Of a DNA stretch of 27,835 nt, positions 2,896-22,500 are shown one piece after another. The notes below the pieces were generated by a model. That model was not told where the DNA came from. It did no database searches and saw nothing but the letters and a program-made list of their open reading frames with translations. The position numbers were made by a program, and so were the translations under genes. Numbering within the stretch: position 1 is the first letter of the stretch; each line of letters opens with the position of its first letter. The DNA is from a virus. The stretch lies in IMG/VR virus record IMGVR_UViG_3300020470_000164, positions 1 through 27,835 of that record; one strand, 5' to 3'.

Positions 2896-2918
2896 CTTAT
2901 ATTCCTATACAATTCCTG

Positions 2919-3320
2919 ATGCCAGCTCAAAGAGTAAGCAAAGCATTTAAAGATATAAGCATGTCATTTAAGTTTAACCCCTTAAGTGGTGATTTGATTG
3001 GTTTGAAAAATGAAAATGCGATTGCAAGGTCTGTAAGGAACATAGTATTAACAAGTCCAGGTGAAAAAATACACGATCCTGAGTTTGGTTCAAATATAAG
3101 TGCTCTTTTGTTCGAAAATGTAGATGAAGTATCTGCAATTGGTATTCGTGATGAAATTGAGAACTCTTTAAAGAATTATGAACCTAGAATTGAATTAGAA
3201 GATGTTATTGTTGATCCAAATTACGATAATAACCAATTTGATTGCATTATTACGTATAGAATCGTTGGTATCGACGTTCCACCAACACAATTAGAATTTG
3301 CGCTGCTTCCATCACGATAA
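2919..3320 (+). CDS. 25: Baseplate wedge subunit gp25
   Basis: This is a T4 gp25-like baseplate wedge protein of 133 aa (T4 gp25 is 132 aa). The family is homologous to TssE of type VI secretion and initiates sheath polymerisation at the baseplate. The diagnostic core motif EPR is present at residues 88-90 in NYEPRIELEDV. Upstream, a helix-rich region includes RSVRNIVLTSPGEKIHDPEF, where the LTSPGE(K/R).(H/D)P.FG pattern is typical of gp25/GpW-like baseplate proteins. The older label 'lysozyme-like' for this family does not imply enzyme activity. Its TAA is followed directly by the ATG of gp6 (TAAATG), so the two should be made in proportion, consistent with gp25 and gp6 acting in the same wedge. 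Confidence 0.93.
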   Translation: MPAQRVSKAFKDISMSFKFNPLSGDLIGLKNENAIARSVRNIVLTSPGEKIHDPEFGSNISALLFENVDEVSAIGIRDEIENSLKNYEPRIELEDVIVDPNYDNNQFDCIITYRIVGIDVPPTQLEFALLPSR

Positions 3321-5252
3321 ATGGCTCTTTTAAACTTTACTAGTCTGGATTTTGACCAGATTAAGACAACTCTTAAAGATTATTTAAGATCTAACTCTAA
3401 TTTTACAGATTATGACTTCGAAGGGTCAAATTTGTCGTCAATTATTGATGTTTTAGCATATAATACCTATATTAATTCATATAATGCCAATATGATCTCA
3501 AATGAGGTCTTTATTGATAGTGCAACATTAAGAGAAAACGTTGTTGCACTGGCAAGAAACATCGGATATATCCCAAGATCACGAAAATCATCAAAAGCAA
3601 CCATAAGTTTTACTGTAGAAGCAGGAATTACACCTCCTCCAAGCACTGTAACCCTTAAAAAAGGACCTGTTGCGAGTACAGGCAACTCTTTTGGAGGAAC
3701 TTCTTACGTTTTTGGTATTACAAAGGATATTACGAAACCAGTTATCGACGGAATTGCTAATTTTTTCGATATTAACGTATTTGAAGGGTCTGTTGTTGAC
3801 CAATCCTTCACTTTTTCGACTGCAAACGTAAATCAAAGGTTCGTTTTATCAAATGCGGGGATAGATTTAGACACTTTAGAGGTAAATGTACGTCCAAGTG
3901 CTACTTCTTCACTCAGATCTGCTTATACAAGGCAAGATTCGCTATTTGATGCCAATTCTGGGTCTTCAATTACTGGAAAATCACTAATTTACTACCTTCA
4001 AGAGATAGAAGATGAGCAATATGAGGTAATTTTTGGTGATGGTATCTTCGGAAAAGCATTAGATGACGGAAATATCGTCGAAGTGTCCTATATTATTAGT
4101 AATGGACCAGAAGGTAACGGAATTAGTAACCTTGCATTTAGTGGAAGGTGTACTTATAGCAGAAATGCAGTCGAAAACACTATCACTAGTGGTATATCCT
4201 TAATCACCGCTGAGAACCCCTCCAGTGGCGGTGAGTTGATCGAAAGCGTTGACTCCGTTAAAAAGTATGCACCGCAGATTTATGCTACTCAGAACCGTGC
4301 TCTGACTGCAAATGACTATGAAATCCTAATTCCTAACAAAATTTACCCTGAAGCAGAGTCAATTTCTGTATATGGAGGTGAAGAACTAGTTCCTCCTCAA
4401 TATGGAAAGGTTTTTATTAGTATAAAACCAAGAGTTGGTGATTTTGTACCTAATGCAATCAAGGAAAATATCAAAAGAGACCTTAAAAAGTATGCTGTAG
4501 CAGGTATTGTACCCGAAATTCTTGATCTTAAGTACCTATTCCTCGAAACAGACAGTAAAGTTTACTATAATTCGAATTTAGCACCCAATTCACCCTTTGT
4601 TTCTTCCGTTATTCTGTCAAATATCAATAAATTGGCAGAATCTGCTGAATTAAATAAGTATGGTGCAAGGTTCAAATACAGTAAATTCTTGAAAGTTATT
4701 GACCAAAGTCACGAATCTATCACTTCAAACATCACTACTGTTCAAATGAGAAGAGATTTGAGACTTGCAGTTGATCAATTTGCTGAATATGCTATTGATT
4801 TTGGTAATCAATTCCATATTTCATCAATGGAAGGGTATAATATTAGGTCTAGTGGATTCAGAGTACTGGATATCACACCTGATGTTTACCTATATGACCT
4901 ACCAAACACTGATAAAAAGACGGGAACTATCAATTTGTTCTCTCTAGATTCTCCAGGATCAACTACACCAACTATTCAGAGGCAAAATATTGGTGTTGTT
5001 GACTATATTAAGGGACGTATTACCTTAAATCCCATCAATATTACTGCTGGAAAAACTAAAGATAACCAGCAAATCATGGAAATTTCGACAATTCCTGAAT
5101 CAAATGACGTTATTGGATTACAGGATCTTTATTTGCAACTAGATACTAGTAACGTAGAGATGGTTGTTGATGAAATTGCCTCTGGTGCTGATCCATCAGG
5201 TTCTACATACACCGTTACACCAAGTTATAACGCTAAGAAGATCGTAAGATAA
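3321..5252 (+). CDS. 6: Baseplate wedge subunit gp6
   Basis: The protein is 643 aa, close to T4 gp6 (660 aa). It starts MALLNFTSLDFDQIKTTLKD, the usual N-terminus of this family, followed by YNTYINSYNANMISNEVFID and ARNIGYIPRSRKSSKA, also family-typical. A baseplate-J-like core lies near residues 325-400, with LTANDYEILIPNKIYPEAES, a GG-containing turn and YGKVFISIKP. In T4, gp6 dimers form the inner ring that joins wedges and closes the baseplate around the hub. There is no frameshift or truncation. It begins directly after the gp25 stop and ends four bases before the giant gene, in the same order as T4 25-6-7-8. Confidence 0.92.
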   Translation: MALLNFTSLDFDQIKTTLKDYLRSNSNFTDYDFEGSNLSSIIDVLAYNTYINSYNANMISNEVFIDSATLRENVVALARNIGYIPRSRKSSKATISFTVEAGITPPPSTVTLKKGPVASTGNSFGGTSYVFGITKDITKPVIDGIANFFDINVFEGSVVDQSFTFSTANVNQRFVLSNAGIDLDTLEVNVRPSATSSLRSAYTRQDSLFDANSGSSITGKSLIYYLQEIEDEQYEVIFGDGIFGKALDDGNIVEVSYIISNGPEGNGISNLAFSGRCTYSRNAVENTITSGISLITAENPSSGGELIESVDSVKKYAPQIYATQNRALTANDYEILIPNKIYPEAESISVYGGEELVPPQYGKVFISIKPRVGDFVPNAIKENIKRDLKKYAVAGIVPEILDLKYLFLETDSKVYYNSNLAPNSPFVSSVILSNINKLAESAELNKYGARFKYSKFLKVIDQSHESITSNITTVQMRRDLRLAVDQFAEYAIDFGNQFHISSMEGYNIRSSGFRVLDITPDVYLYDLPNTDKKTGTINLFSLDSPGSTTPTIQRQNIGVVDYIKGRITLNPINITAGKTKDNQQIMEISTIPESNDVIGLQDLYLQLDTSNVEMVVDEIASGADPSGSTYTVTPSYNAKKIVR

Positions 5253-5256: not shown

Positions 5257-8200
5257 ATGGCACAGAAACGGATTCCAGTTAATAAAACTGTAAAGGACCA
5301 ACTTCCTTCATATGTTAAGGAAGAAAGTCCTTTAGTTGGTGAATTTTTAAGTGCCTATTATCAAGGGCAAGAATATCAAGGTGGACCACTTGATATTGTT
5401 AATAATTTAGATACTTATATAAAATTAAATGAAGCTACCAATCTTGTAGGGTTTACCACACTCTCAAGTGCTGTTTCTTCGTCAGATACTGAGATAAACG
5501 TAAATAGTACTCAAGGATTTCCTCCTAGTTACGGATTATTGAAGATTAATGACGAAATTATCTCGTATACTGGTGTAGGAACTAATAAATTTACTGGTTG
5601 TATACGTGGATTTTCTGGTATTACGTCATTTACGAACCCAGACGAACCAGAAGAGTTCCTTTTTTCAGAATCTAAGGCAAAAGCACACGCAGTTGGCATT
5701 GGAACTTCCTCTGGTCAAGTAGAAAATTTAAGTGTTTTATTCTTAGAGGAGTTTTTAAAGAAGTCTAAAAAGCAATTTTTACCAGGATTCCAAAAAGATC
5801 TGAATACTGGGTTAAATCAACCTCAATTTATTAGACATTCTAAGGATTTTTATAACTCTAGAGGGACGGATGAGTCCTTCAAATTGATGTTTAAGTCACT
5901 TTGGAATGAAAATGTTGATATTATTAGACCAGCAGATTACGTAATATCTCCCTCAGACGCAAATTATAGAAAAACTCGTGATCTTATTGTAGAACCAATA
6001 CAAGGAGATCCAGCAGATTTGGTCAATATGACCCTTTTTCAAGATCCGTTTGAGAATCTTGCTAAAGCATATGGTCCTGTATCCGCCGTAGAACGCATCA
6101 GAGTGGGTCTTTTAACAGATACCTACTTTAAGGTAAGTATTGATGCTTCGTTCGGTACAGGCAGTTCTGACGAACTATTATATGGTAATTTTGGTGTACA
6201 TGCTAATTCTATGGCAGTTGGTGCTGTTGGAGCAGCACAAACCTATATTGACGTTGATTCCACCATAGGATTCCCTCAGAAGGGTTCTTTAACCTTTAAG
6301 TATAAGAATGGTACAACTGGAATTGCAACATATTCTAATACGACAATTAACCAGTTCTTAGGTGTTGTTGGAGTTACAACAACAATTAAAGATACTGAAC
6401 TTATTAAACAAAATACCTACGTTTACGCTCAAGGTAAAGCAGAAGAAAATGCAGGTATTACTACGAATGGTATAAGATGTAGGATTACTGGTGTATTAAG
6501 TGATTTGGAAATTCCAAATACTTATTATCAGAAAAAAGGTGCAAAAATAAAATTAAAATCTTTAGGTAAAGTAGCACCTATTGGTGATTTTAAATCTCTT
6601 GGTTGGATGAGTAATGTCCAAGCAAGATATAATCTTGAATCATCTCCTGGTGCTGCTGCAGGTGTGAATGTAGATACGGATGGTGTTTATCTTTATGATG
6701 CTTCTAATAATACATTTACTATAACAACCAAGGATTTTCATAGAATTAGAATCAATGAAACTGTAACTTTACAGAATAAAGATGCTACTCTAGATGGAAC
6801 ATATACTGTAACTGATGTTCTTAGTGCTAATAAAATTAGAATTAGGGGTGGTGCTATTGCTGTTGGAAATCGTGATAAGGTTATTAGTGTAACCAGATTA
6901 CAGAATAAACCCAATAATAATGGTACAGATCCTTGGAATAGTCATTCACATATAAACAATTATACTGCAAATATACAGAACGTGTATATGCAGGAGGTTG
7001 GTTATGCTCATACTGTTAGTACAATTAAGAATTTAGTTGCTTCTAACTCATTACCATCATTTGCTGATGCTCCATTTAACCCAAGTACGCAGAAAATTAG
7101 TCTTTCTGGTACATTTAATGGTGGTGATACGATAATTGGAATTACAACTGGTACAAAAGATCATAATTTCTTCACTGGTGATGCAATCTATTATACACCC
7201 CAAAAATATGATTCTGGATTAGTTCAATCATTACTTTTTCCTGAAGGATTGTATTTTGTAGAAAGAATTAACCATAATGACGTAAAATTAGCAAAATCTG
7301 CTTCTAACTTATATGATGGTAACTATCAGAAGATAAATGAGGATACTGTTCAGAGAACTATTACTAATAATATCTTTGAAAAGTATGATTTCCATAATAA
7401 GCAACTTTTACCACAAAAACTCTTTAGAGAACTTGATATTCCAGTTTATGATGGTAAAAAGTATCCAACAAATATTGGTTATAATGGAATATTAATTAAT
7501 GGTGTTGAGGTTTTAAGTTATAAATCTAGAGATCTTTGCTATTACGGAACACTTAATTCTGTTGATGTTATTGGTGGAGGAAGATATTATGATGTTATTA
7601 ATCCACCACAACTTGCTGTCAATGATGGTGGTATTGGATATGGTGCTACTGGATATGTTGCAACAAGAGGTAATTTCCAAGAAATTAGAATTTTAGACCC
7701 TGGTTTTGATTATACTGAGGTTCCTATAATTTCAATTAGTGGAGGTAATGGTAAAGGTGCGGAAGCAGAATGTAAATTATCAACAGTACCACATGAAGTA
7801 GTCTTTAATGCTGGTAATCTTTCTCAAACAGTCGCTATAGCAACTGATGTTATATACGATAATCCAGGATATAACGTTGGTTTCTTAACCTATCATAAGT
7901 TTAGAAATAATGAGAGAGTTGTATATGATACATTTGGTGAAAAAGGACTAGTTGGATTGGATACTGGTGCTGTTTATTACGTTAATACTCAGCAAAGATA
8001 TGGAACCACAGGATTCACAACTATAACAAGTTGGGTTGGATATGCTGGAACTACTTGGTATTCTAATAAGACTATTAGATTGCATACAGATCTTAATGAG
8101 TGTATTGCTGGTGTTAATACGGTATCAATAACTGCCTTTGGTGAAGGAAACCATGTATTTAGATCTTTAAATGGAAAGGCACAGGTAACTAGTATTAAAG

Positions 8201-11200
8201 TTACTAATCCTGGTGAAGGATATGAGAATAAGCAAAAAACTTGTCTTCCAGTAGGAATTAATACGGCACTTGATAGAATTACTATTGAAAATCATGATTA
8301 TAAATCTGGTGAAATTATCACTTATAATTCAGATACTGATGGAACTGCTATTCAAGGACTTTCTAGTGATAAAGAATATTATGTTGATGTTATAGACGAA
8401 AATACATTTAGATTAGCAACTGTTGGAGTTGGTACTACAGCAAAGGATTTCTACTATAAAACACGACAATATGAGAATTTAAGATCTGTTGGTGTTGCAA
8501 CTCATACTTTTAATTACCCACCAATTAAGGTAGAAATAACTGGTGCTGTTGGTATTAGTTCGATTGAAGGAAATACTTTCCAATGTATTCCTCAACCAAT
8601 TGTTAGAGGTGAAGTAACTTCTATTCACCTAACAGAAAATGGTGTTGGTTATGGATCTTCTGAAATATTGAATTTTAATAGACAACCAAATATTGATCTT
8701 TATACTGGAAGAAATGGTGAATTATTGCCTATTGTTGATGCTAAGGGTGAAATTATTGACGTTGCTATTAACAATAGAGGAGATTCTTATAATACACCAC
8801 CATCCATTTCTGTTGCAGGTGTTGGAACTGGTGCGGAGTTAGTTCCCGAAATTATTGATGGGCAAATCCGTTCAGTTAAGATTATTAAGAAAGGTGTTGG
8901 TTATGGACAGTCTACAACTGCTCTTACTGTAGAAGCAGCAGGTGAATTTGCAAGTTTCCTTGGTAATATTCAAACATGGCAAGTTAATGAGGTACAAAAG
9001 AATTATGCAAATATAGATGGTTCAGATGCTTTCTTAGATAAACCAACTCAAATTAGTCGTGGATTGCAAGCTTCATATGCATATGCTCCAAGAAGTTTAA
9101 GAAAGGTTATATATCAAAATGATGGTGATGGTAATGCAATTTATGGTAGTAGAGACCTAACTCTTCTAAATGGTTCAACTGAAGAAGATAAATCAAGACA
9201 TTCACCCATTATTGGATGGGCATATGATGGAAATCCCATTTATGGACCATATGGTTATGAAAAGAGCACTGGTGGAAATATAACTCAGTTAAGAAGTGGT
9301 TATTCTGTAGATCTTAAGACTAATAGACCTCCTACTTCTATTTTCCCACAAGAATTCTTTATAGAAGATTTTACATGGAATACAAATACTGATGAGAAAT
9401 ATTTGGATGAAAATAATGGAAGATATGGTATAACTCCAGAATATCCTAAAGGAACATATGCTTATTATGCTACATTTGATACTAGTTTAACATCTGGAAA
9501 TCTACCTTCTGGTCAAACTGATCCTTTTGCCAATTATAAGAAACCTGCTTTCCCATATTTACTTGGTAAGAATTATGATGCAACACCAAATGAATTTAAT
9601 ACGTTATCAAAGAATAATCAGGAAGAAATTGATCTGAATAAGACGACATGGGTTAGAAATACTGAACCATACGAATTACTTCAGGATGATAGTTATTATG
9701 ATTATTTGAAACAATCTTATAAGTATGTAACTCAAGATTCTACTGTTAAATACGCTGAAGAAGGTAAAATTGATAAAGTTGGAATTGTTACTGGTGGATC
9801 CAGTTATGCTGTTGGTGATAAACTTGTTTTTGAGGAAGAAGTTGCTGATAATTTCCAAGCAGTTGCTAGAGTATCAAAATTAGAAGGTCCTGGTATTGGA
9901 ACTATTAGTGTAACTAATACCAAATTGAATCATATTAAATTCTATCCATCTGCTGAAAGAAATAAATTTATTGGTATTCATACAACTCCAATTGGACTTA
10001 GAAATACTGATAAGGTTTATGTTTCTGGAATGTCTACCACTAATTCTAGTATTGGTGGTAGAACTTACAATATTGGAATTTCATCTGCAAGGTTAATTGT
10101 ATCTGAAGGTATTGGAACAGTTGGTGCTACTGGACTTGTTACTTACTTTAGTGTTCAGGGTAAGTTAGCGTATCCAAATGATCCTGCTAATGATACATCA
10201 ATAAGAGAAAATGATATCTTAACTGTTGGTATTGGTACTAGAAGAGAAGAAATTAAAGTATTATCTGTAGATTCTATATCAAATAGACTAAGAGTTCTAA
10301 GAAATCAGAATGGTACAACTTCACCTGAAGTTGATACTACTGGATTTGCACATTCAATTAGAACAAATATAGAAGAGCGTCCTAGAAAATTCACTATTGA
10401 TGTTGGGTTTGAAACTTCATTTAATAAAAATATTGATAAAGAATATTATTTTGATCCAAGAGAATCATTAGGATTGGGTACAACTGATGGTGTTGGTATT
10501 GGAACTACTGTAGTCTTTGAAAATCCTGGTGGTGGTGTGACTAAATTATTTGTTCCTTCACGTCATATTTACTTACCAAATCACAAATTACAAACTGGTG
10601 ATAGTGTAATTTACAATAGAAATACTGGAAACTCTATTGGTATTGCAACAAATCCACTTAATGCAGCAGCAGTTAATCCTTATACAACCAATTTGCCAGA
10701 GAATGTTCCTCTATATGTTGCAAAATTAGGTGTTGATTTTATTGGATTATCAACTGTTAGAGTTGGTTTAGGTACTGACGGAGATACTTCTTTCAATAAC
10801 GATATCTATACTGGTATTGCAGCAACAACAAAACATCAAGGATTGGTTTATTTCTTGGGTATTGGAACTGGTAGATACCATAGTTTAACCGTAAATTATG
10901 ATAGTACCGTTACAGGTTCTGCAGAAAAGAATCTAGTAACTGTTGCGGTAGGTGCAACACATGGATTAAAGAATAATGATACGGTTTACTTAACTGTTGA
11001 TGCTGGAATTACCACAACAGTACCTGTTAAGTACAATAAAGCAAACAGAAAACTAATTGCTAGAACATTAGATTTCACTGCTGCTGGTATTACAACTGCT
11101 TCATCAACAACGGATATTCCAAGTTCTATAACAATTTTAAATCATGAGATGACTACTGGACAGAGAGTTGTTCATACAACTTCTAGTGCTGCTGGTAATT

Positions 11201-14200
11201 TGGTAAATGATGAAGAATATTTTGTATATGTTATCAATAAAGATATTATTAAACTTTGTGGAAGTAGATTCCAAACAATACAGAAGAAACCTAAGTTTGT
11301 AGACATACCAACAACTGGTACTGGTACACTTAATTTGGTAAACCCACCATTAGAATTTTATAAAAATGGTACAGTAACATTTGATTTATCAGATTCTTCT
11401 TTAAGATATACTGTTGGTGCTACAAATTATCCTGCATTTGAGTTTAAACTATATAAAGATTCTAATTTTATTCATGAGTATACTTCAAATGAATTAGAAG
11501 AATCTTTTGAGGTTAATAGAACAGGTACAATTGGTGTTGATGGTAAAGTTACATTGAAAGTTAATCAATATACACCAAAAATACTTTATTATAATTTAAT
11601 TCCAACTACAGATAGTCAAAACTTAGATATAAACAAAGAACTTGTTTTAGATAAGAAACTTATTGGAAATAATGAAATTAATATTAAGACTAGTCGTTAT
11701 GCTGGTCAATATGATGTTCTTGCAACAACTTCTAGCGAGTTTACTTTTGATGTAGACAAATATCCAGAAGTTCCATCATATACGGCATCAGCAACAACAA
11801 AATTAGATTATCAAACAACTTCTAAGAATGCATATGGTCCTATTGCTCACATTGCTCTTGCTGATAAAGGAAGAGGATATAAGAGAATACCTGGAATCAG
11901 TACTGTAACAACAGACACTGGATCTGGTGCTATCCTAGAAGCATCTAGCACTAGTATTGGTGTACCAAAGACATTTGAAATTGAAAATATTGGTTTTGAT
12001 TATCCATCAGACTTTACATTAAGACCACAATCAAAACTTCCTTCAGTTATTAAAATTGAAGCACTATCTGGTTTTGAATCAATTGGTATTACTTCTTATG
12101 GTAGAGGTTATAACCAACCCCCTGCTTTGGTTGTAGTTGATGGTAGAACTGGATTAAAAGTTGATGATGTTGATTTAAGATACAATTTAGAAACACCAGA
12201 TGAACCAGGATATGTTGATATCATTCAGAATACCTATGGATTATCTAGTGTAACTCCAAGAATTATTCCTGTAGCGAATCCTAACGGAATTAGAGTTACA
12301 AGTTTGGTTTATGATGCTTCTACAGACACTGTAAAAGCAGAAATGAAGGTTGCTTACAGTCTTACTGAGGAATTCCCAATTGAAGTTGGTGATAGAGTAT
12401 TTGTTGAGAATGCTAGTGTTGGTGTTGGTTCAACTGGACAAGGATATGACTCTCAATATTATGGATATAATACTTTTGAAGTTACTCAAATCCACCAAAA
12501 CTTAGGTAATGTTGGTGTTGTTACTTACAGCATGGGTGGTAATGTTCCTTCTGGTGCAGTACCTGGTAATTTTGATTCTGCTAATTCTTCTGCGATATTA
12601 GTTAAAGAAAGAGATTTCCCACAATTTGCACCTAAGTTAGTACCCAATATCTTTAATGCGAATGAAACTCTTAAATCTGAGACTAGTGTTGGTCCTGTAC
12701 AAGGTCTTGCATATGAATATGATCCAGAAAGTAAGTGGTTAACTGTTGAAACATCGGGTGATTTTGAAGTTGATAGACTTATTGAATCTTTAGAAACTGG
12801 TGCTAAAGGAACAGTTTCTGAAATTGTTATGACATTTGATTCTAATTATATTCTTGATTATTTCTCTATAGTCAATAATGGTTGGGAATATCAAACTGGA
12901 TTCTTAAATGATAGTTTACAGAAAGTACATGATAACGAATATTATCAGAGTTTCTCATATGCGATTAAATCCAGAGTATTCTTTGATACTTGGAAAGATA
13001 TTGTTAATACATTAACTCATACTTCAGGGTTTAGGAAATTCAGTCAGTTACAAGTTGAATCTCAACTTCCTGTAGCAAATCAAAGTGCTATGGTTGTTGG
13101 TCTTGCAGGAACTGTTACTGGAATTATTAATATTCAGAATGAAGAGAGTTTGCATGAAGTTAATAACTTTGATTTAGTTACAGAGAACTTAAAGGATAGA
13201 TCTCCTGCTGCTGGTAATTTCTCTGATGAAATTACATTTAAGAATCGTATTTTGATGGATTATGCTGAATCTGTTGGAAATAGGGTTCTTAAAATAGATG
13301 ATCTTTCTTCAGAATTCAGTAGCAATCCAAGACAAGAACCTTGGTCTGAAGTTGCAAGATTTGATATTGCTAATAATAAAGAAAATAGATTTATTGTTTA
13401 TGTAAGAGATAGATTATATACTGACGAAAGGCAGATAATGATGGTTAATGCATTATTCGATCCTGTTAGTGGTAAATCATTAATTAACCAATATGGTGCT
13501 GTTGATACTGTTCTTGATTTGGGATCAATGGACACTGCTGTTGATGGTACTGATGCAGTTCTTCAATTCCATCCAATTAAGTCTGAGAAGAACAACTATA
13601 ATGTTATAACACTTTCATACAACCTTGATGAACTTGGATTTACTACATCATTAACTGCAATTGGTGCTACAACTATTGGATCTTCATCAAATCCACCAGG
13701 TGCATTGGTAAGTATTGGTTCATCTAACGTTTTAGGAACAGGTGGGCAGGAAATCAAGATTGCTACTGTTGGTACAGCGTCTACTACTGGTTTAGGAACT
13801 GCTGGTAATGCAACTAATGAGTTATACAACCCAAGATCTGCTAAAGTTATTGTTGCTATTGCTACAAGTGAAGGTTCTGTAGAATATGATGAATTAAGTA
13901 TGATCTATTCTGGTGTAGGTAATACCAGCATAGTATGGCACGAATATGGTCAATTAGCAATTCATAATAGAAGAGATAATCTTGCTGCAGAACCATTAGG
14001 TACATTCAGACCTTATGTTGTTGGTGTAGGAACCACTGCTGCTATAGAAATTGGATACACACCTAATGCTGGTATCCAAACTGCTTGGATTAACTCCATT
14101 ACCATTGGAATTTCATCAGAATCCTTTACTGGTATTGGAACTCTTCCATTACAAAATGCAGCGTTAATTGCTAAATCAACCACAATTCCATCTGCTGGAT

Positions 14201-17200
14201 CACCTGCTGCTGTTGGTATAGCAAGTTATAAGGATGATTTTGATGGTGCTTATGTTTTAGTACAAGTTAAAGACACTACGAATGATAGATATGAATTCTC
14301 TGAAGTAATGATGGTTGATGACGACAATACTGTCTCTATCAGTGAGTATGGTAATTTACAGGCAGGAGTTGGTGCATTTGAAGGTTTGGGTACTATCAGC
14401 GCAAGAAGAGCATCTGACGGTTCTTGTAAGTCTGAGTTAACGTTTACACCACCCGCTAATACTGCAGTAGAAGTTAAGACATTTGTTCAAGCACTTAAGG
14501 TTGAAGAAAATTCTGCAGATACGAATAAGATAGAACTTAATTCTGGTTCTATTCAGAGTAATTGGGATGTATATGGTGGAACATTCTATGATAAGAAGAC
14601 TGAATTTGGAATATTACATAGCGGAAATCAAGTATTTGAGAAGAATTTTGATGGATCTGATACTGATATTGTAGATTTGACGAATAACACCATTACAATG
14701 CCAAATCATTACTTTGTATCTGGTGAAGAAGTTACGTATTCAGTTAGAACTGCTATTAGTTGTGCTGCTACAACTGGTATTGGTACTACTGGAGACAGGA
14801 TAGGAATTGCTAACACATACTTTGCTGGAATAGGAGAAACTGTAGGATATCTTCCAGATTCAGTATTCATCATTAAAGTTGATAATACAAAGATTAAATT
14901 AGCAAGATCTGCAGAAGATGCATTAAAACAGATTGTTGTTCCTATAGATTTAACTTCTGTTGGTGTGGGAAGTACACATACAATTACAAGTAAGAACCAG
15001 AATACTAGAGGTTTAATTACAGTCGATAATATTATTCAAACACCTGTTGTGAATAGTGAGGTTAAGTCTGGATTATCAACGGATCTTGGTAAGAAAGTAG
15101 ATCTTCTCTATATGACTGGTATAACATCATTCTATAGTGGAGATGATATTAAGATCAATGATGAAATAATGAAGATAGTTGCTGTAGGTCCTTCTGCAGG
15201 TGCTACTAATGCTGTTAAGGTACATCGTCATTGGATGGGTACACAACTTGGATTCCATAGTGGATCTCCAACTGGAGTTGGTGATACAGTAACAAAACTT
15301 GTTGGTAATTATAATATTGTTGGAAATACCCTTAATTTCTCTGATGCACCATTTGGTGGAGAACCTCCTGTAGGTCATTCAACAAGTATGCCAGATGAAA
15401 GAGATTGGATTGGTATCACCACTTACTCAAGTTTCAGTGGTAGAGTCTTTATGAGATCTGGTGTTCTTGGATCTAATTACGATGCTTATACAACAAATCA
15501 TGTAATAGATGATCTATCAGAACAATTTGATAGTAAGAGCACTCAGCAGACCCTGAAGGTTGATGAATCTAATGTTACTGGTATTGCTACCAATAATGGT
15601 ATTGTTCTTATTAATGGTATTTTACAGGGTGCTGGTGCATTAGCAAATTATGATTTAATTGAAGCAGCAGGAATCACTTCAATTAGATGGACTGGTACAG
15701 CATCATCTACTGTATATGATCCAAATAATGCTACTGTTCCTGTTGGTGGTATTATAGTTTCTGTTGGATCAACTGAAGGTGAAGGATATCAACCATTAGT
15801 TTCTGCTGGTGCAACTATTCGTTTTGCTTCTTCTGGTGTTGTTACTTCTGTAAGTATTGGTAATACTGGTTCTGGTTATAGAGTAGTTCCTGGACCTATT
15901 ACGGGTATTGGAACAAGAGTTGGTATTGCAACAGAAGTTAAGGTTGGTGTAGCATTATCTAATACTGGAACTCCAACTATCCAATATATTGGTACTGCAG
16001 CAGTTGTTAATGGTAGTATTGTAAGTATTGCTGTTACATATACAGATCCAGTACCAGGATTCCCAGGAACTGCTTCTTCCACATTTGATGCAATAATTGA
16101 CGCACCATTACCTTATGAGAATATACCACTTTGGCATCATTCTTCTTCTCCAGGTGTTGCGGGAACAGGTGCATTAGCAAATATTACTGTTGGTATGGGT
16201 GGAAGTGTAATTGACTTTGAGATTACTAATACTGGTTATGGATATAAAGCAGGTGAAATTTTAACTATACCAACAACATATGCTACTGGTGCTGGATCAA
16301 CTGTTGGAATTCCTACAGCATCCAATTGGGATGGAGATCCTGCATTTAAGTTAACTTTAGATAGAGTTCATCATGACGAGTTCAGTATGTGGACTATGGG
16401 TGAAATTCAACCACTTGATGACTTCTCAAGTTACTTTGATGGTGTTAGAAAAGCATTCCCAATTACTGTTGGTGGTGATTCTTATGCTATTCAGGCAAAA
16501 ACAGGTTCTGGTATTGTAATTGCTGAGACATTAATTCTTACTATTAATGATGTTCTACAAGTACCTGGTGAAGGATTCACCTTTAATGGTGGTGGTACTA
16601 TAACAATGACTGAAGCACCTAAGAAAGGTGATACCTGTAACTTCTTCTTCTATAGAGGAACTGGTGGTGCTGACGTGCTTGATAGAGATATTATTGAAAC
16701 TGTTAAAATGGGTGATGACCTGACAGTTGGTTCTGATCGCGCATTTAACCCTATCGATAGGTTTGAGAATCCAAGAACAGTTTCAGAAGTTAAATCCTCA
16801 GACCAAGTTGATACTAACCAATACTATGGTGTTGGATTGGGAGATGATGCCACAGAATCAAGACCTGTTAAATGGTCTAGACAACTTGAAGATAAGTACA
16901 TTGATGGTAGAGTTGTTCGTAAGGATCGTCCTTTATATGAACCAAATTTATACCCAACAGCATACTTAATTCAGGGAGTTGGTATTGGTTCCACTACTGT
17001 TTGGGTTGATAACTGCAAACCATTCTTCGATCCATTAAATGAAAACCCAGTTAATAGAGGTTTCCAGAAAGATATTCAAATCGTTAATGCAAGTAATGAG
17101 TATGAAATATTTGCTGGTGCAGCTGCAACTGCTATAGTTTCTGCTGCTGGTACTATACAATCAATTGCTATAGGTGATAGTGGTAGAGGATATACAGCAA

Positions 17201-17991
17201 CTCCTACAATTACCGTTCAGGTTCCTGTTGGTGTAGGTGGTACTCCATTTGTTGGGATTGGTACAACTGCTGCTGCTAAAGCAACTGCAACGGTAACTAA
17301 TGGTGTTGTATCAGGAATTACAGTTACAAGTCCTGGATTAGCATATACACATGCAAATCCTCCTCAAGTATTAATTACTCCTCCAGTATATGTTAGAGAA
17401 GAAAATACCATTGACGTATATGAAGGCGATTATGGATTAATTACTGGAATTGGTACAACTTCAACAAGCGGTGTTACTACTGGAATTACATTTGACTTGG
17501 TTATACCTGCAGATTCTCCTTTAAGGGATTCTAAAGTTGCAGCACCAAATGCTATTTCCAGAAGCGGATTATCTACAGGATATTACTTTATGGTTAATGG
17601 ATCAAATGTTGGTAGTGCTGTCACGTCACTAGATGCTGCTGGTAATTATGTTGGTCTTGGAACAACTGCTGTGGATAATATATATCAAGTTGTTCATCAT
17701 GTTGGAGTTTCAACTGGAACTATTGGACTTGGAGTAACAGAAGTTCAGAGAATAACTGTTAGTGTTCTTAGTTGGAATGGATTGGATTCAACTGTTGGTG
17801 CATCAGGAACAACTACTATCGGAATTAGTAGTGACTTTATTGGTGAGTATAGTTGGGGTAAGATTCAGTTCTCTGATAGAATGAAATCTCAAGCATATAC
17901 TGTTACGACAAGCAACGGTGTTGCTGGAATTAAGACGGGTCCACAGATCAAACGGAAGTTTGCATTGAAATCTACAAATTATGTCGTCTAA
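5257..17991 (+). CDS. Giant modular virion protein (4244 aa) in the gp7 position
   Basis: This lies between gp6 and gp8, the slot of T4 gp7 (1032 aa), but is about four times longer. The N-terminal part (about 1-300) has a family-typical block, SRGTDESFKLMFKSLW (201-216) then VDIIRPADYVISPSDANYRK, seen in giant tail proteins of T4-like phages. It probably anchors the protein to the baseplate. The rest is beta-rich and built of recurring modules: GxGY modules (769-838, 973-998, 1117-1230, 1503-1550, 2194-2300, 3527-3610, 3649-3675, 3965-4045); histidine/turn modules ending in 'kLA.S' (from about 486, 632, 1006, 1765, 1956, 3143); DDLS modules (2679, 3416, 3718); and 'EYG' modules (2723-2790, 2872-2950, 2994-3085). 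A degenerate YHYH-like domain spans about 1240-1435. There is no signal peptide or membrane segment. The role is probably peripheral baseplate or fibre attachment, by position. Confidence 0.85.
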   Translation: MAQKRIPVNKTVKDQLPSYVKEESPLVGEFLSAYYQGQEYQGGPLDIVNNLDTYIKLNEATNLVGFTTLSSAVSSSDTEINVNSTQGFPPSYGLLKINDEIISYTGVGTNKFTGCIRGFSGITSFTNPDEPEEFLFSESKAKAHAVGIGTSSGQVENLSVLFLEEFLKKSKKQFLPGFQKDLNTGLNQPQFIRHSKDFYNSRGTDESFKLMFKSLWNENVDIIRPADYVISPSDANYRKTRDLIVEPIQGDPADLVNMTLFQDPFENLAKAYGPVSAVERIRVGLLTDTYFKVSIDASFGTGSSDELLYGNFGVHANSMAVGAVGAAQTYIDVDSTIGFPQKGSLTFKYKNGTTGIATYSNTTINQFLGVVGVTTTIKDTELIKQNTYVYAQGKAEENAGITTNGIRCRITGVLSDLEIPNTYYQKKGAKIKLKSLGKVAPIGDFKSLGWMSNVQARYNLESSPGAAAGVNVDTDGVYLYDASNNTFTITTKDFHRIRINETVTLQNKDATLDGTYTVTDVLSANKIRIRGGAIAVGNRDKVISVTRLQNKPNNNGTDPWNSHSHINNYTANIQNVYMQEVGYAHTVSTIKNLVASNSLPSFADAPFNPSTQKISLSGTFNGGDTIIGITTGTKDHNFFTGDAIYYTPQKYDSGLVQSLLFPEGLYFVERINHNDVKLAKSASNLYDGNYQKINEDTVQRTITNNIFEKYDFHNKQLLPQKLFRELDIPVYDGKKYPTNIGYNGILINGVEVLSYKSRDLCYYGTLNSVDVIGGGRYYDVINPPQLAVNDGGIGYGATGYVATRGNFQEIRILDPGFDYTEVPIISISGGNGKGAEAECKLSTVPHEVVFNAGNLSQTVAIATDVIYDNPGYNVGFLTYHKFRNNERVVYDTFGEKGLVGLDTGAVYYVNTQQRYGTTGFTTITSWVGYAGTTWYSNKTIRLHTDLNECIAGVNTVSITAFGEGNHVFRSLNGKAQVTSIKVTNPGEGYENKQKTCLPVGINTALDRITIENHDYKSGEIITYNSDTDGTAIQGLSSDKEYYVDVIDENTFRLATVGVGTTAKDFYYKTRQYENLRSVGVATHTFNYPPIKVEITGAVGISSIEGNTFQCIPQPIVRGEVTSIHLTENGVGYGSSEILNFNRQPNIDLYTGRNGELLPIVDAKGEIIDVAINNRGDSYNTPPSISVAGVGTGAELVPEIIDGQIRSVKIIKKGVGYGQSTTALTVEAAGEFASFLGNIQTWQVNEVQKNYANIDGSDAFLDKPTQISRGLQASYAYAPRSLRKVIYQNDGDGNAIYGSRDLTLLNGSTEEDKSRHSPIIGWAYDGNPIYGPYGYEKSTGGNITQLRSGYSVDLKTNRPPTSIFPQEFFIEDFTWNTNTDEKYLDENNGRYGITPEYPKGTYAYYATFDTSLTSGNLPSGQTDPFANYKKPAFPYLLGKNYDATPNEFNTLSKNNQEEIDLNKTTWVRNTEPYELLQDDSYYDYLKQSYKYVTQDSTVKYAEEGKIDKVGIVTGGSSYAVGDKLVFEEEVADNFQAVARVSKLEGPGIGTISVTNTKLNHIKFYPSAERNKFIGIHTTPIGLRNTDKVYVSGMSTTNSSIGGRTYNIGISSARLIVSEGIGTVGATGLVTYFSVQGKLAYPNDPANDTSIRENDILTVGIGTRREEIKVLSVDSISNRLRVLRNQNGTTSPEVDTTGFAHSIRTNIEERPRKFTIDVGFETSFNKNIDKEYYFDPRESLGLGTTDGVGIGTTVVFENPGGGVTKLFVPSRHIYLPNHKLQTGDSVIYNRNTGNSIGIATNPLNAAAVNPYTTNLPENVPLYVAKLGVDFIGLSTVRVGLGTDGDTSFNNDIYTGIAATTKHQGLVYFLGIGTGRYHSLTVNYDSTVTGSAEKNLVTVAVGATHGLKNNDTVYLTVDAGITTTVPVKYNKANRKLIARTLDFTAAGITTASSTTDIPSSITILNHEMTTGQRVVHTTSSAAGNLVNDEEYFVYVINKDIIKLCGSRFQTIQKKPKFVDIPTTGTGTLNLVNPPLEFYKNGTVTFDLSDSSLRYTVGATNYPAFEFKLYKDSNFIHEYTSNELEESFEVNRTGTIGVDGKVTLKVNQYTPKILYYNLIPTTDSQNLDINKELVLDKKLIGNNEINIKTSRYAGQYDVLATTSSEFTFDVDKYPEVPSYTASATTKLDYQTTSKNAYGPIAHIALADKGRGYKRIPGISTVTTDTGSGAILEASSTSIGVPKTFEIENIGFDYPSDFTLRPQSKLPSVIKIEALSGFESIGITSYGRGYNQPPALVVVDGRTGLKVDDVDLRYNLETPDEPGYVDIIQNTYGLSSVTPRIIPVANPNGIRVTSLVYDASTDTVKAEMKVAYSLTEEFPIEVGDRVFVENASVGVGSTGQGYDSQYYGYNTFEVTQIHQNLGNVGVVTYSMGGNVPSGAVPGNFDSANSSAILVKERDFPQFAPKLVPNIFNANETLKSETSVGPVQGLAYEYDPESKWLTVETSGDFEVDRLIESLETGAKGTVSEIVMTFDSNYILDYFSIVNNGWEYQTGFLNDSLQKVHDNEYYQSFSYAIKSRVFFDTWKDIVNTLTHTSGFRKFSQLQVESQLPVANQSAMVVGLAGTVTGIINIQNEESLHEVNNFDLVTENLKDRSPAAGNFSDEITFKNRILMDYAESVGNRVLKIDDLSSEFSSNPRQEPWSEVARFDIANNKENRFIVYVRDRLYTDERQIMMVNALFDPVSGKSLINQYGAVDTVLDLGSMDTAVDGTDAVLQFHPIKSEKNNYNVITLSYNLDELGFTTSLTAIGATTIGSSSNPPGALVSIGSSNVLGTGGQEIKIATVGTASTTGLGTAGNATNELYNPRSAKVIVAIATSEGSVEYDELSMIYSGVGNTSIVWHEYGQLAIHNRRDNLAAEPLGTFRPYVVGVGTTAAIEIGYTPNAGIQTAWINSITIGISSESFTGIGTLPLQNAALIAKSTTIPSAGSPAAVGIASYKDDFDGAYVLVQVKDTTNDRYEFSEVMMVDDDNTVSISEYGNLQAGVGAFEGLGTISARRASDGSCKSELTFTPPANTAVEVKTFVQALKVEENSADTNKIELNSGSIQSNWDVYGGTFYDKKTEFGILHSGNQVFEKNFDGSDTDIVDLTNNTITMPNHYFVSGEEVTYSVRTAISCAATTGIGTTGDRIGIANTYFAGIGETVGYLPDSVFIIKVDNTKIKLARSAEDALKQIVVPIDLTSVGVGSTHTITSKNQNTRGLITVDNIIQTPVVNSEVKSGLSTDLGKKVDLLYMTGITSFYSGDDIKINDEIMKIVAVGPSAGATNAVKVHRHWMGTQLGFHSGSPTGVGDTVTKLVGNYNIVGNTLNFSDAPFGGEPPVGHSTSMPDERDWIGITTYSSFSGRVFMRSGVLGSNYDAYTTNHVIDDLSEQFDSKSTQQTLKVDESNVTGIATNNGIVLINGILQGAGALANYDLIEAAGITSIRWTGTASSTVYDPNNATVPVGGIIVSVGSTEGEGYQPLVSAGATIRFASSGVVTSVSIGNTGSGYRVVPGPITGIGTRVGIATEVKVGVALSNTGTPTIQYIGTAAVVNGSIVSIAVTYTDPVPGFPGTASSTFDAIIDAPLPYENIPLWHHSSSPGVAGTGALANITVGMGGSVIDFEITNTGYGYKAGEILTIPTTYATGAGSTVGIPTASNWDGDPAFKLTLDRVHHDEFSMWTMGEIQPLDDFSSYFDGVRKAFPITVGGDSYAIQAKTGSGIVIAETLILTINDVLQVPGEGFTFNGGGTITMTEAPKKGDTCNFFFYRGTGGADVLDRDIIETVKMGDDLTVGSDRAFNPIDRFENPRTVSEVKSSDQVDTNQYYGVGLGDDATESRPVKWSRQLEDKYIDGRVVRKDRPLYEPNLYPTAYLIQGVGIGSTTVWVDNCKPFFDPLNENPVNRGFQKDIQIVNASNEYEIFAGAAATAIVSAAGTIQSIAIGDSGRGYTATPTITVQVPVGVGGTPFVGIGTTAAAKATATVTNGVVSGITVTSPGLAYTHANPPQVLITPPVYVREENTIDVYEGDYGLITGIGTTSTSGVTTGITFDLVIPADSPLRDSKVAAPNAISRSGLSTGYYFMVNGSNVGSAVTSLDAAGNYVGLGTTAVDNIYQVVHHVGVSTGTIGLGVTEVQRITVSVLSWNGLDSTVGASGTTTIGISSDFIGEYSWGKIQFSDRMKSQAYTVTTSNGVAGIKTGPQIKRKFALKSTNYVV
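7561..17391 (+). repeat. Dispersed GxGY protein-repeat modules inside the giant gene
   Basis: A pattern of hydrophobic strand, two or three residues, [N/D/T/E]-x-G-x-[G/D/S]-Y, short turn, P, strand recurs many times. Examples are VTNPGEGY, LTENGVGY, IIKKGVGY, LADKGRGY, ITSYGRGY, IGNTGSGY, ITNTGYGY and IGDSGRGY. Copies tend to be paired 30-60 residues apart, with a GxGAxA-like strand between them. Related copies occur in gp8 (211-300) and in the 2548-aa protein (1944-2013). The coordinates mark the outer limits in this gene; the copies are not contiguous. Confidence 0.75.
8974..9561 (+). other. YHYH-like domain with the signature histidines missing
   Basis: Within the giant protein, SPIIGWAYDGNPIYGPYGY (1316-1334) and NGRYGITPEYPKGTY (1387-1401), followed by FPYLLG (from about 1432), match the conserved blocks of YHYH domain proteins as I remember them. 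The position that would carry Y-H-Y-H reads YAYA (1274-1277), and the later tyrosine cluster reads YAYY (1401-1404). The assignment rests on the two conserved blocks; the alignment of YAYA to YHYH is my inference. Confidence 0.65.
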
Positions 17992-18024: not shown

Positions 18025-19575
18025 ATGTCTGCTATTATAACTGATCAGATAAGAATATTGAATGCGAAGAACTTCGTTGCTGGTGTCTCCACCAACACAA
18101 ATTCTTATTATGCGTTCGTAGGTCTTCCTAATCCAACAGGAATTAGAACTGATTGGGACTCTGCTCCGCCAGCACCTGTAGATAGTTTTTCGGATTCGAA
18201 TGACTATTGGGATAGTATGATAGCGGTTAAGAAAATAACTCCTGCAGACGTTAAGCAAATCGTTAAGAAGAATCAATGGGCATCTGGTACAACTTACGAT
18301 TATTATAGACAAGATTATAGTATCACTAATGCACCTCCCAACTCTGGTGGTACAACTCTATATACAGCAAACTTTTATGTTGTAAATAGCGATTATCGAG
18401 TTTATGTTTGCTTACAAAATGGATCTACTCCAGAAACACCCGACGGAAAACCTTCTCTAGATGAACCAACATTCACCGATTTAGAACCGAGAGTTGCTGG
18501 TACTTCTGGTGATGGATATATCTGGAAGTATCTTTATAGTATTAAACCAGCAGATTTAATTAAATTTGATTCTACTGAATTTATGCCTGTTCCCGCAGAT
18601 TGGGATACAAGTACTGAAGATAGTGCTATTCGTAATAATGCTGTTGATGGTGGTATTAAAATTGTTGTTATTAAAAATAGAGGAACTGGTATAGGTACTG
18701 CTAACCAGACTTATACAAGAGTTCCAATTAAGGGTGATGGATTTGATGCAGAATGTACGGTTGTTGTTAATAATGACCAGCAGATAGAAAGTGTTACTAT
18801 TTCAAACGAAGGTTATGGTTACACTTATGGTAATGTTGATCTTGCTGCTGGATCAGTACCAACTCCAACTTCTCCACCAACACTAGATGTTATAATTCCA
18901 CCTCCTGGTGGTCATGGTAAGGACATTTATCGTGAATTAGGTGCTACTAATGCACTTCTCTATGCAAGAATTGAAAATGACGCAGAAAACCCAGACTTTA
19001 TTACTGGTAACCAAATCGCAAGAATAGGTATTATTGAGAATCCTTATGCTTGGGGTTCTACTCAGTTACTTACTCTTGATAAAGCATCTGCAACTTATGC
19101 TTTACGTTTAACTGGTACTGGTTATAGTTCTGTTAGTTTTCCTGCTGATGGATTAATTACACAAACAACTGGTACTGGTGTTACTGCAGTTGGTAAGGTT
19201 GTTAGTTATGACCAAACCACAGGAGTATTGAAGTATTGGCAAGATAGAACCATTGCTGGTTTTAACACTGTTGGTACTGCACAAACAAATCCAGTTTACG
19301 GTTATAATACAACAAGGTTTACTGCTGATCCTTCAGTGGGTGGTAATAGAATTATTGTTGGTGGTAGTGCAAACTTGTCTATTAGTACTACATTTACTGG
19401 CCTCTCTACGGCAATAAATAATAGGACCTACTACCTTGGTCAATCATTTACCAAAGGTGTGTCCAACCCAGAAGTTAAAAAATATTCTGGAAACATGATT
19501 TACGTTGATCATAGGCCTTCCATTACACGATCTTCCAACCAAAAAGAAGATATCAAGATCATATTACAGTTCTAA
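18025..19575 (+). CDS. 8: Baseplate wedge subunit gp8, enlarged
   Basis: The C-terminal block SGNMIYVDHRPSITRSSNQK then EDIKIILQF aligns well by eye with the T4 gp8 end (SGEMIYMENRPPI... EEINILFTF). The N-terminal part has matching features: an early YAFVGLPNP strand, a DSNDYWDSMIAVKKI segment, a W/Y-rich middle, then GDGYIWKYLYSIKPAD like T4 GDGYVWEYLFEIPPD. gp8 dimers link gp7 and gp10 within each wedge. This copy is 516 aa against 334 aa in T4. The extra length includes an insert near residues 211-300 with GxGY modules (VTISNEGYGYTYGN), the same module as in the giant gene upstream. A 33-nt gap precedes it, one of the longest within the tail block, with no Shine-Dalgarno sequence. Confidence 0.9.
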   Translation: MSAIITDQIRILNAKNFVAGVSTNTNSYYAFVGLPNPTGIRTDWDSAPPAPVDSFSDSNDYWDSMIAVKKITPADVKQIVKKNQWASGTTYDYYRQDYSITNAPPNSGGTTLYTANFYVVNSDYRVYVCLQNGSTPETPDGKPSLDEPTFTDLEPRVAGTSGDGYIWKYLYSIKPADLIKFDSTEFMPVPADWDTSTEDSAIRNNAVDGGIKIVVIKNRGTGIGTANQTYTRVPIKGDGFDAECTVVVNNDQQIESVTISNEGYGYTYGNVDLAAGSVPTPTSPPTLDVIIPPPGGHGKDIYRELGATNALLYARIENDAENPDFITGNQIARIGIIENPYAWGSTQLLTLDKASATYALRLTGTGYSSVSFPADGLITQTTGTGVTAVGKVVSYDQTTGVLKYWQDRTIAGFNTVGTAQTNPVYGYNTTRFTADPSVGGNRIIVGGSANLSISTTFTGLSTAINNRTYYLGQSFTKGVSNPEVKKYSGNMIYVDHRPSITRSSNQKEDIKIILQF

Positions 19576-19581: not shown

Positions 19582-22500
19582 ATGGCTCAGCAAACCAATC
19601 TCAATGTCAGTCCATATTTTGACGACTTTGATTCAAAAGCCAATTATCATAAGATTCTTTTTAAACCTGGATATCCTGTTCAGGCAAGAGAATTAACTGG
19701 CCTTCAATCAATTCTTCAAAATCAGGTTGAAAAGTTTGGACAACACTTCTTTAAAGAAGGTGCTAAGGTAATTCCTGGAAATACAGCGTATTCTCCAGAA
19801 TATTTTGCTGTTGAGTTAAATAATGACCATTTAGGAACTCCCGTTAGTTATTATATTGATCAGTTAATAGATAGAAAAATAATTGGATTAACATCTGGTG
19901 TTACTGCTATAATTAATAAGGTTTTATTAGCAGAAGAGTCTGATAGAGGAAATCTGACCATCTATATTTCATACATGTCTGCTGGTGTTGAAAATAGTGA
20001 TCAAAAAACATTCTTAGATGGAGAACTATTAACTGCTGATAGTGATATTGTATCTGGACCATCTAATAACGCTTTTATTCCTTCAGGTGAATCTTTTGCT
20101 TCTTGTATTGCTACAAATGCAACATCTACTGCATCATCATTTTCAATATCTAATGGTGTTTATTTTATAAGAGGTAATTTTGTTGATGTACATGATGAGA
20201 CCATTCTTTTAGACCAGTATGGTAATGATGCGAATGCTAGAATTGGATTAAGAATTGAAGAAGATATTATAAATGCGGATGAGGATCCAACTTTAGGAGA
20301 TAACTCAAAGGGTTTTAATAACTATGCTGCTCCTGGCGCAGATAGACTTAAGATTACTGCTAGTTTATATGCAAAACCACTTGATGATTATAATGATTCC
20401 AATTTTATTGAATTGGCAGTTGTTCAAGATGGTTTTTTAAGATCTCAAACAAAGAATACAGAATATAGTCATATTGCAGAGGAACTTGCTCGACGTACAT
20501 ATGCAGAATCTGGTGATTATACAATTACTCCATTTGATGTAATAGTTAAAGATTCTTTAAATGATAATCTTGGTAATAATGGTGTATATGAAGAAGGTCA
20601 ATATACTCAGGCAGGAACATTAGCGTCTGATGACCTTGCAGTATATCAGGTTGGTCCTGGTAAAGCATTTGTTAAAGGATATGAGATAGAAACTATTGCT
20701 TCTAACTTCTTGGATTGTCCAAAACCAAGAACTACTAAAAAATTAGAAGGTCAAGGTATAGTTTATAATACTGGAACATCACTACGACTTAATAGAACTA
20801 ATGGACTACCAACTGTAGGTATTGGTAATACTTACATTGTTAGTTTGAGGGATCAAAGACTTGATGATAATGGGATGAAAGTCTCTGGTAATGAAATTGG
20901 TCTTGCTAGGGTTTATGACCATGTATTAGAATCTGGTTCATATTCAGCAACTAATGCGGATGTTAATGAATGGGATATTGCTCTTTATGACGTACAAATG
21001 TCATCAAAGATAACACTAAACGAATCTGCTACTCTTTCTGTTCCAACATTTATAAAAGGAAAGTATAGTGGAGCAACTGGATTTTTAAAGGATGCTGTTA
21101 CTAATAGTGCTTCGCTAGATGTTTATGAAAAAACAGGAGAATTTATAGTAAACGAACCTTTTGAATTTAATGGTGTACCTGATGGTGAGTCTCGTGTTGC
21201 TATTGCTGTTACTTCATATGGGTTATCTGACGTAAAAGCAATTTATGGTGGGCCACAGTTAGGTAATGTTGGTGCTGCTAAAACATTTAATGCTGACGTA
21301 AAGCAGAATATTGCTTATCGTTTTGGATCCGCTACTGTTGGTGCTGCAAGTAATGCTTATGTAAGTACTGTTACATGCGAAAACGAATTATTCCCAGGAA
21401 AGATTAAAGTTGGTAATATTGTTTCTTTTGGTGGTCTTGGAAACAATGTTCCTACTTATGCAAGAGTTACTGCTAAAACAGCATCAAATATCAGTGTAAC
21501 TGGCGTTTCAACTGTTACTGGAATTGTATCAGGTGAATTGCCAACATCATCATTGAATGTATCTGACCTCCAACTCGTTAGTTCACCGTCTCCAAGTGCT
21601 CAGGAAACAAGTTTATATACTTTGATGCCTAAGCAGTTTATTTCTGATGTAGACCTTACCGACGCATCTTTATCTATTAGAAAGGTTTATACTGTTAATA
21701 TTGTTGGTGGACAACTTGATAATGCAATAGAATCTGAGGCAAATGAAACTTGGTTACCGTTTGATGAAGAAAGATATTCATTAGTAAGAGCAGATGGTAC
21801 AACAGTAAGACTTACTGACAATATGTTCCAATTTACTGCTGGAGCAACTAATTTACAGATTAATTGTGGTGGTTCTGATTCTTCTGGATGTACACTTGTA
21901 GCAACTTTAAAGAAAACTAATGTTTCAGCAAAAATTAAGAGGCAAAATAGAGTAAATTCGGTTGTTATTAATGCTTCTTCTCTTACTGGATCTGGTATTG
22001 GTGCAACAACTAGAAATGATGGATTAGTTTCTGGTAATTATCCATTAGGAACAAGAGTTCAGGATAATAGAATTGTATTGAATACTCCAGACGTTAATAA
22101 AATTCTTGGTGTTTTTGAATCTACTGATACAGCATCTCCAAGTGCTCCAAAGATGACTTTGGTCTCTTTAAATGGTCCTAGTGGAAAAACTACTGATTTA
22201 GTCATTGGTGAACAGATTCAAGGTTCTGATAGTGGTGCTATAGCAGTTTATGCTGAAAAATTAACTGATGCACAAATTACATTTGTTATTCAGAATGAAA
22301 CTTCATTTAAAGAAGGTGAAGTTGTTACATTTAAAGAATCTAAAGTTCAGGGTGTTATTAGTGTAATTGATATTCCTAGTAAAAATATTTCTGGAAACTT
22401 TACCTATAGTAAGGGTCAAAGACCAACATTTTATGATTATGGTTTCCTTATTAGAAGAAGTAATGCGAAAGCACCGACGAAATCATTAAAAGTTTATTTC

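Follow-up and report, generated by a model that had tools for sequence, protein, structure and literature searches.

The 4,244-residue protein encoded in the gp6-gp8 slot of this viral fragment is very probably the gp7 of its cyanophage, a wedge scaffold of the T4 gp7/P2 gpI/TssG type with an anchor in two pieces. The two pieces, A and B, stand 105 residues apart in T4 gp7 and 2,317 apart here, and because the A-B gap forms a series that runs from about 105 to 2,317 residues, the giant can be read as a gp7 anchor that is split by a very large insertion and extended by a tail. The window (the whole stretch of DNA analysed, a 27,835-base viral fragment with linear ends) carries gp25, gp6, the 4,244-codon gene, gp8 and a DUF4815/VrlC-type gene in that order, and hence the gene order gp25-gp6-gp7-gp8. 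Its wedge genes and the main parts of the giant (numbered by residue of the protein) are the following.

2919..3320, plus strand: gp25, sheath initiator / wedge subunit (Pfam GPW_gp25)
3321..5252, plus strand: gp6, in T4 the partner of gp7 in the (gp6)2-gp7 wedge trimer (Pfam Gp6-like, E = 3.5e-16; phrog_219)
5257..17991, plus strand: the giant gp7 gene, as assigned here; ATG start, 4,244 aa, 458 kDa, free of internal stops, with full-length collinear relatives (PHROG 2885 "baseplate wedge subunit", E = 0)
5269..5442, plus strand: anchor part A0, residues 5-62, helical N-terminus (HMM matches in relatives; low-confidence AF2 helices)
5710..6150, plus strand: anchor part A, residues 152-298, with DFY..KG..SFK.LFK.L at 192-222 and then a beta domain (matches T4 gp7)
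5926..12873, plus strand: insertion between A and B, residues about 224-2539, 2,317 residues against 105 in T4 (HMM distances)
12874..13068, plus strand: anchor part B, residues 2540-2604, D..YYQ.FSY.I.S....W..IV..L.H..GF (genome-scan profile; hhalign)
13069..17988, plus strand: C-terminal tail, residues 2605-4244, 1,640 aa, nearly absent after B in S-CREM2 and S-H34
18025..19575, plus strand: gp8, wedge subunit, next after gp7 in all relatives (Pfam Phage-Gp8; phrog_438)
19582..27228: DUF4815/VrlC-type protein, 2,548 aa (phrog_358)

The original prediction took this to be one gene of 12.7 kb in the gp7 slot, and the gene bears that out. The frame at 5257-17991 is free of stops and its product aligns end to end with that of the isolate SynMITS9220M01 (44.8% identity over 4,294 columns), with full-length identities of 40.3% to Bellamy and 39.4% to S-SM2. 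The long frame is likewise open, for most of its length, in dozens of independent IMG/VR loci, with identically ordered parts. Nucleotide differences from a 67%-identical relative (L016) run at 0.25, 0.19 and 0.45 for codon positions 1, 2 and 3, a pattern that purifying selection on a protein would give. There is next to no chance that the gene is an artefact of sequencing or assembly, whether by fusion of genes or as a chimaeric contig. The window comes from a metagenome and has linear ends, which would allow for such an error, but the full-length gene recurs in complete isolate genomes as well as in the dozens of loci and its changes are biased by codon position, and we count this reading as refuted.

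The giant matches PHROG 2885 along the profile (E = 0, 3154 bits; the matching pieces cover profile positions 5 to 4177), and with its many same-slot cyanophage relatives it belongs to an already known kind of gene. Relatives of its N-terminal 533 residues occur in 462 phage records, nearly all of them cyanophages, and the slot order gp25-gp6-X-gp8-VrlC is conserved among the isolate relatives. The architecture is common to hundreds of cyanophages, and the giant is not a peculiarity of this phage. Collinear same-slot genes in cyanophage isolates encode 3,884 to 5,195 aa (in annotated records, P-SSM2 5,195, P-HM1 4,446, P-TIM68 4,307, S-SM2 4,156, SynMITS9220M01 and Bellamy 4,067, S-SRM01 3,895 and S-CAM9 3,884 aa), while half-size proteins fill the slot in S-H34 (1,942 aa) and S-CREM2 (1,937 aa) and a same-slot open frame of about 6,200 aa is found in S-ShM2 (L009:13138-31125). 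Proteins of the gp7 type in which both anchors occur are between 503 and about 6,200 residues long. The S-ShM2 protein also has a further 600 residues between A0 and A, a second insertion point. The PHROG 2885 proteins of SynMITS9220M01, Bellamy, S-SM2 and P-SSM2 agree with the giant in slot, domain order and length class and differ from it in sequence only; the three nearest isolates have 4,067-4,156 against 4,244 aa and show 39-45% identity over the full length. Some annotators have already named the gene gp7 (in P-SSM2 and others), and the gp7 name is therefore not new; elsewhere the gene bears conflicting labels ("virion structural protein", "head closure Hc2", "baseplate wedge initiator").

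The N-terminus had been described as conserved and anchor-like, and profile matches to T4 gp7 confirm it. Searched against all PDB sequences, an N-terminal profile gives significant matches to T4-type gp7 alone (E = 1.8e-5, T4 residues 728-758), and a refined, tighter profile reaches T4-type gp7 at E = 1.5e-7. The hhalign program pairs residues 189-296 of the giant with 725-814 of T4 gp7 (seven T4-type gp7s) at E = 2.4e-9; the anchor A score is 84.7 against a shuffle maximum of 28.2, and none of 60 column shuffles is comparable. When a T4 profile of the anchor region is used reciprocally, the top 16 of 2,073 ORFs are all gp7-slot ORFs. The beta domain of anchor A matches domain V of T4 gp7. 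An AF2 model of residues 1-840 (mean pLDDT 69) is aligned by VIA-align to T4 gp7 702-846 (5iv5) with 25% identity, Z of 8.2 and an rmsd of 13 Å, the last because domains shift relative to each other. Unrelated structures give similar Z values, and so the weight of this comparison rests on the 25% identity and its agreement with the sequence alignment. Part A0 has HMM matches in all cyanophage gp7s and in those of phages Cr30, OC, Ps15, phiM12 and HTVC008M, and we assign it, by analogy with XM1 gp17, to a putative core bundle with gp6.

These matches have clear limits. The OC gp7 sequence searched directly against PDB by phmmer gives no match, and only profiles reach T4 gp7. The N-terminus of the window gp7 finds nothing in NCBIfam, and the giant is matched by none of the Pfam T4 gp7 domains (Gp7_helical, Gp7_5th, Gp7_6th). 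PF23786 (Baseplate_wedge) scores 13.8 bits with the whole giant and 18.2 bits with its N-terminus, below the curated cut-off of 27 bits, which the compact relatives do reach. Profiles made from T4 gp7 residues 1-640, from its helical segment by itself and from domain VI find no convincing match in the giant. By its slot, its anchors A and B and its uniqueness, the giant is, judged from sequence, a gp7-type wedge protein, and one that falls outside the T4-type gp7 subfamily (phrog_964), whose remaining domains it lacks.

Anchor B is the part that the first reading of the sequence missed, having treated the extra mass as simply appended after an N-terminal anchor. With a second anchor half at residues 2540-2604, in mid-protein, most of that mass becomes an insertion within gp7. 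Anchor B matches T4 gp7 "SYYVMKIKSNLPSSRWKSDVIRFVHPVGFG" (from about 860 to 889), and A followed by B in the giant is collinear with T4 gp7, where A lies at 725-758 and B at 863-888. Run over 12 complete cyanophage genomes, a B profile built without T4 sequences picks out a single strong site per genome, located every time in the ORF that also carries anchor A; in the T4 genome its sole site within threshold is gene 7 (E = 0.0019), 105 residues past A. The hhalign score of B against T4-type gp7 is 34, where shuffles score 17.6 +/- 3.3 with a maximum of 31.4, and four of the five best matches in the reciprocal search fall on B. Compact gp7s show both anchors strongly with cyanophage profiles (in OC, Ps15, Cr30 and phiM12, E of 1e-14 to 1e-20 for A and 1e-14 to 1e-18 for B); the OC protein has A at 9e-19 and B at 1e-18, 104 residues apart.

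It is possible in principle that the giant is a true gp7 whose B is coincidental or separately recruited, leaving an N-terminal anchor with a long appended stalk and no insertion, and we hold this to be unlikely. Pairwise, B against T4 is only marginal and weak taken alone (hhalign P of 0.0026 with a probability of 12%, PDB E of 0.2, reciprocal E of 0.12-1.4), and B in isolation is not folded in the AF2 model of residues 1940-2720 (pLDDT under 50), a failure to be expected if its folding needs A and gp6. Against an appended stalk, each gp7 examined has a single B, compact ones such as that of OC with its T4-like spacing of about 105 residues among them, and in all seven T4-type gp7s B lies at one equivalent aligned position. 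The minimal cyanophage gp7s, moreover, end shortly past B (12 aa in S-CREM2, 47 aa in S-H34), as if B closed the protein.

A-B distances were measured with HMMs in 23 proteins and 43 IMG/VR loci. The gap is 105 residues in T4, 104 in OC, 265 in Ps15, about 530 in HTVC008M, 552 in Cr30 and 807 in phiM12; among cyanophages it is 1,617 in S-H34, 1,645 in S-CREM2, 2,151-2,352 in oceanic phages, 2,317 in the window and 2,746 in S-ShM2, and the 43 IMG/VR loci have a median of 2,216. A short gap probably came first: it is common to T4 and OC, and the minimal relative in XM1 is only 242 residues long. The family name is known; the literature searched contained no description of the split anchor or of the insertion series.

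One account of this region runs the other way. A published comparison of pelagi- and cyanomyophages describes T4 gp7 as absent and apparently substituted by VrlC (PMC7029224), in which case the gene at 19582-27228 would have replaced gp7 and the giant would be an unrelated decoration or fibre protein occupying the slot. The failure of the three Pfam T4 gp7 domains to match the giant sits well with that account, yet we consider it very improbable and disagree with it, as gp7 appears to be present both in cyanophages and in the pelagiphage HTVC008M. Anchor profiles link T4 gp7 and the giant in both directions, and HTVC008M gp055 (L105:33435-36485), a protein of 1,016 aa in the gp6-gp8 slot labelled "head closure Hc2", carries A0, A and B despite that label. 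Phages phiM12, Ps15 and S-CREM2 have an anchored gp7 as well as a large gene after gp8, which in phiM12 and Ps15 is called VrlC-like. VrlC was itself considered as the gp7 substitute and rejected, because searches for both anchors came up empty in VrlC, in the window as in HTVC008M. A separate gp7 elsewhere in the genome, which the original prediction named as a refutation, did not turn up: in 12 complete cyanophage genomes the T4 gp7 profile matches nothing outside the giant gene, and each of these relatives has one A and one B site besides weak spurious matches. The gp7 identity first suggested by the slot is upheld, and strengthened by the anchor profiles in both directions and by the lack of a second gp7 in those relatives. 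In S-CREM2, proteomics of virions detected the 1,937-aa orthologue through 91 unique peptides that cover 27% of it (PMC10665884).

Some smaller observations belong here. The HTVC008M proteins gp059 and gp062, labelled "baseplate wedge initiator", have no anchors. GY modules recur in neck/gp14-type proteins, which may explain the mislabelling of gp055. Residues 53-122 of the window gp7 weakly match the phrog_358 profile, and gp7 and the VrlC-type giant may therefore share an R-like module.

Set beside better-known systems, the giant resembles T4 gp7 (PDB 5iv5, phrog_964) in the gp6-gp8 slot, the anchor A motif, the domain V-like domain and the order of A then B, and differs in missing the 640 residues before the anchor and domain VI after it, and in its A-B gap. 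The compact gp7s of Ochrobactrum phage OC, Stenotrophomonas phage Ps15, Caulobacter phage Cr30 and Sinorhizobium phage phiM12, all of the PF23786 type, have both anchors like the giant; unlike it they are 503-1,007 aa long, with gaps of 104-807 residues and no YHYH-like domain. (The phiM12 gp7 also matches TIGR02242 at E of 1e-5, below the family cut-off.) HTVC008M gp055 (phrog_3465) shares the slot and all three anchor parts with the giant and differs in its length of 1,016 aa and its gap of about 530. XM1 gp17, P2 gpI and TssG, minimal wedge subunits, form a two-to-one trimer with a gp6-type protein, as proposed for the giant; XM1 gp17 has 242 aa and no large insertion, and for the XM1, P2 and TssG subunits no direct sequence match to the giant is shown.

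The insertion and the tail contain three families of repeated modules, one copy of which (R copy 1) lies between A0 and A, and one recognisable domain.

5473..5622, plus strand: R module copy 1, residues 73-122, between A0 and A (iterated HMM)
6226..6375, plus strand: R module copy 2, residues 324-373 (iterated HMM; VIA-align fold)
Residues 663-690 and 3204-3243: H modules (HMM)
7522..8919, plus strand: GY modules, residues 756-835, 973-1003, 1065-1140 and 1139-1221 (iterated HMMs)
Within 7522..8919, plus strand: H modules, residues 936-968 and 1035-1090, interleaved with the GY modules (iterated HMMs)
9187..9489, plus strand: YHYH-like domain (PF14240), residues 1311-1411 (Pfam E = 3e-20, 73 bits against a cut-off of 25)
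11200..11352, plus strand: H module, residues 1982-2032 (HMM)
11815..12021, plus strand: GY module, residues 2187-2255 (HMM)
Within 13069..17988, plus strand: tail GY modules, residues 3515-3594, 3635-3672, 3953-3994 and 3997-4070

The giant had been pictured as thousands of residues assembled from a few reused modules. The repeats are real, with about 13 repeat pairs against 0-2 in shuffled controls of the same tiling, but their reach was overstated, for the GY (nine merged copies), H (five) and R (two) families together make up only about 20% of the residues. The fold of R copy 2 is like that of the small beta domains in tail-tip proteins of phages Chi, lambda, JBD30 and GP4 (VIA-align Z of 8-9.6). 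All 13 tested proteins from cyanophage isolates have the YHYH-like domain, and all 11 tested non-cyanophage gp7s lack it. In place of the domain's signature stands YAYY in the giant and YAYF in nearly all relatives where the motif was located, which likely reflects the loss of any histidine-based function. Residues 453-550 match V-ATPase B-subunit barrels, which we take as no more than a widespread barrel fold, and the matches of residues 1940-2720 to E1 FCCH-type and eIF2gamma-type beta barrels (Z of 7.6 or less) are too common to interpret.

After B there are 1,640 residues in the giant, 12 in S-CREM2, 47 in S-H34 and 2,669 in P-SSM2. In S-SSM7 (L012:18989-38083) the gp7 region is made up of two genes, of 3,007 and 3,001 aa, that are separated by a gp9/10-like connector, and the second large gene carries segments of the tail of the window protein. 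The short-tailed gp7s and the separate S-SSM7 gene mark the tail as separable, lost or absent in some phages.

How such a protein might work can be pictured from its relatives. The T4 (gp6)2-gp7 and type VI secretion (TssF)2-TssG complexes each have a core three-helix bundle and a trifurcation (PMC6300606), and the gp7 orthologue of XM1, gp17, holds tailspikes by an anchor-domain loop (80-106) and by its C-terminus (PMC10457771). By analogy, the cyanophage gp7 would join a pair of gp6 copies in every one of the six wedges of the baseplate, with A0, A and B folding together on gp6. If A and B meet there, the 2,317-residue insertion would be held at both ends, much like a closed loop, leaving the trunk at the position of T4 gp7 domain V, and the 1,640-residue tail would leave the wedge as a free arm. 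Six copies come to a computed 2.75 MDa at 458 kDa each, and six loops and arms, up to that mass, would surround the baseplate. They could do peripheral work done in T4 by the other gp7 domains and by separate proteins: enclosing the dome, holding or replacing receptor-binding appendages, and passing a contact signal to gp6 and gp25. We infer, on these analogies, a peripheral shell or receptor platform made of insertion and tail, which may, as first suggested, be visible as a collar, skirt or fibre network.

A bolder form of this idea makes insertion and tail the main host-recognition apparatus, replacing separate tail fibres, and we regard it as rather doubtful. The XM1 orthologue does hold spikes at a loop and at its C-terminus. 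In SynMITS9220M01, whose gp7 has 4,067 aa, the stretch from VrlC to the neck genes contains no more than three small ORFs, whereas S-H34, with a gp7 of 1,942 aa, has seven annotated fibre genes beside gp25, and an inverse relation of gp7 size and fibre-gene number is possible; the contrast, however, spans two genomes only and the fibre genes of these two regions. The fold comparison of AF2 models of residues 1-840 and 1940-2720 found no fibre or known receptor-binding fold, the order of parts in the insertion is no more variable than in the rest of the protein, and the YHYH domain has, to our knowledge, no proven sugar binding. That the wedge subunit of oceanic cyanophages is a host-contact organ, whose gp6-pinned loop and free tail replace fibres, must likewise be considered improbable; were it true, receptor contact would pull directly on the trunk that triggers sheath contraction. 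The three small ORFs of SynMITS9220M01 (L106:109-914) lie in a region where pelagiphages reportedly keep a fibre island.

T4-like cyanophages and pelagiphages rank with the most abundant marine viruses, and the literature searched yielded no baseplate structure of a marine T4-like cyanophage. The two-part anchor locates gp7 in cyanophages where one account holds it to be missing, and accounts for the conflicting annotations of the gene. The boundaries of A0, A and B are exact guides for atomic models or for the expression of fragments, and they turn the role of a 2,300-residue insertion and a 1,600-residue tail into a direct structural and genetic question. The gp7 series, from 503 to about 6,200 residues, offers a good case of protein growth by insertion at a fixed point.

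Rfam and tRNA searches gave no match. At its right-hand edge the fragment cuts through an ORF of at least 130 aa (27444-27833). Positions 1479-2246, directly upstream of the wedge operon, hold a conserved gene of 255 aa (phrog_1574) with a weak glycosyltransferase-like match, whose DNA is 76-79% identical in several cyanophages and is among the best conserved in the window.
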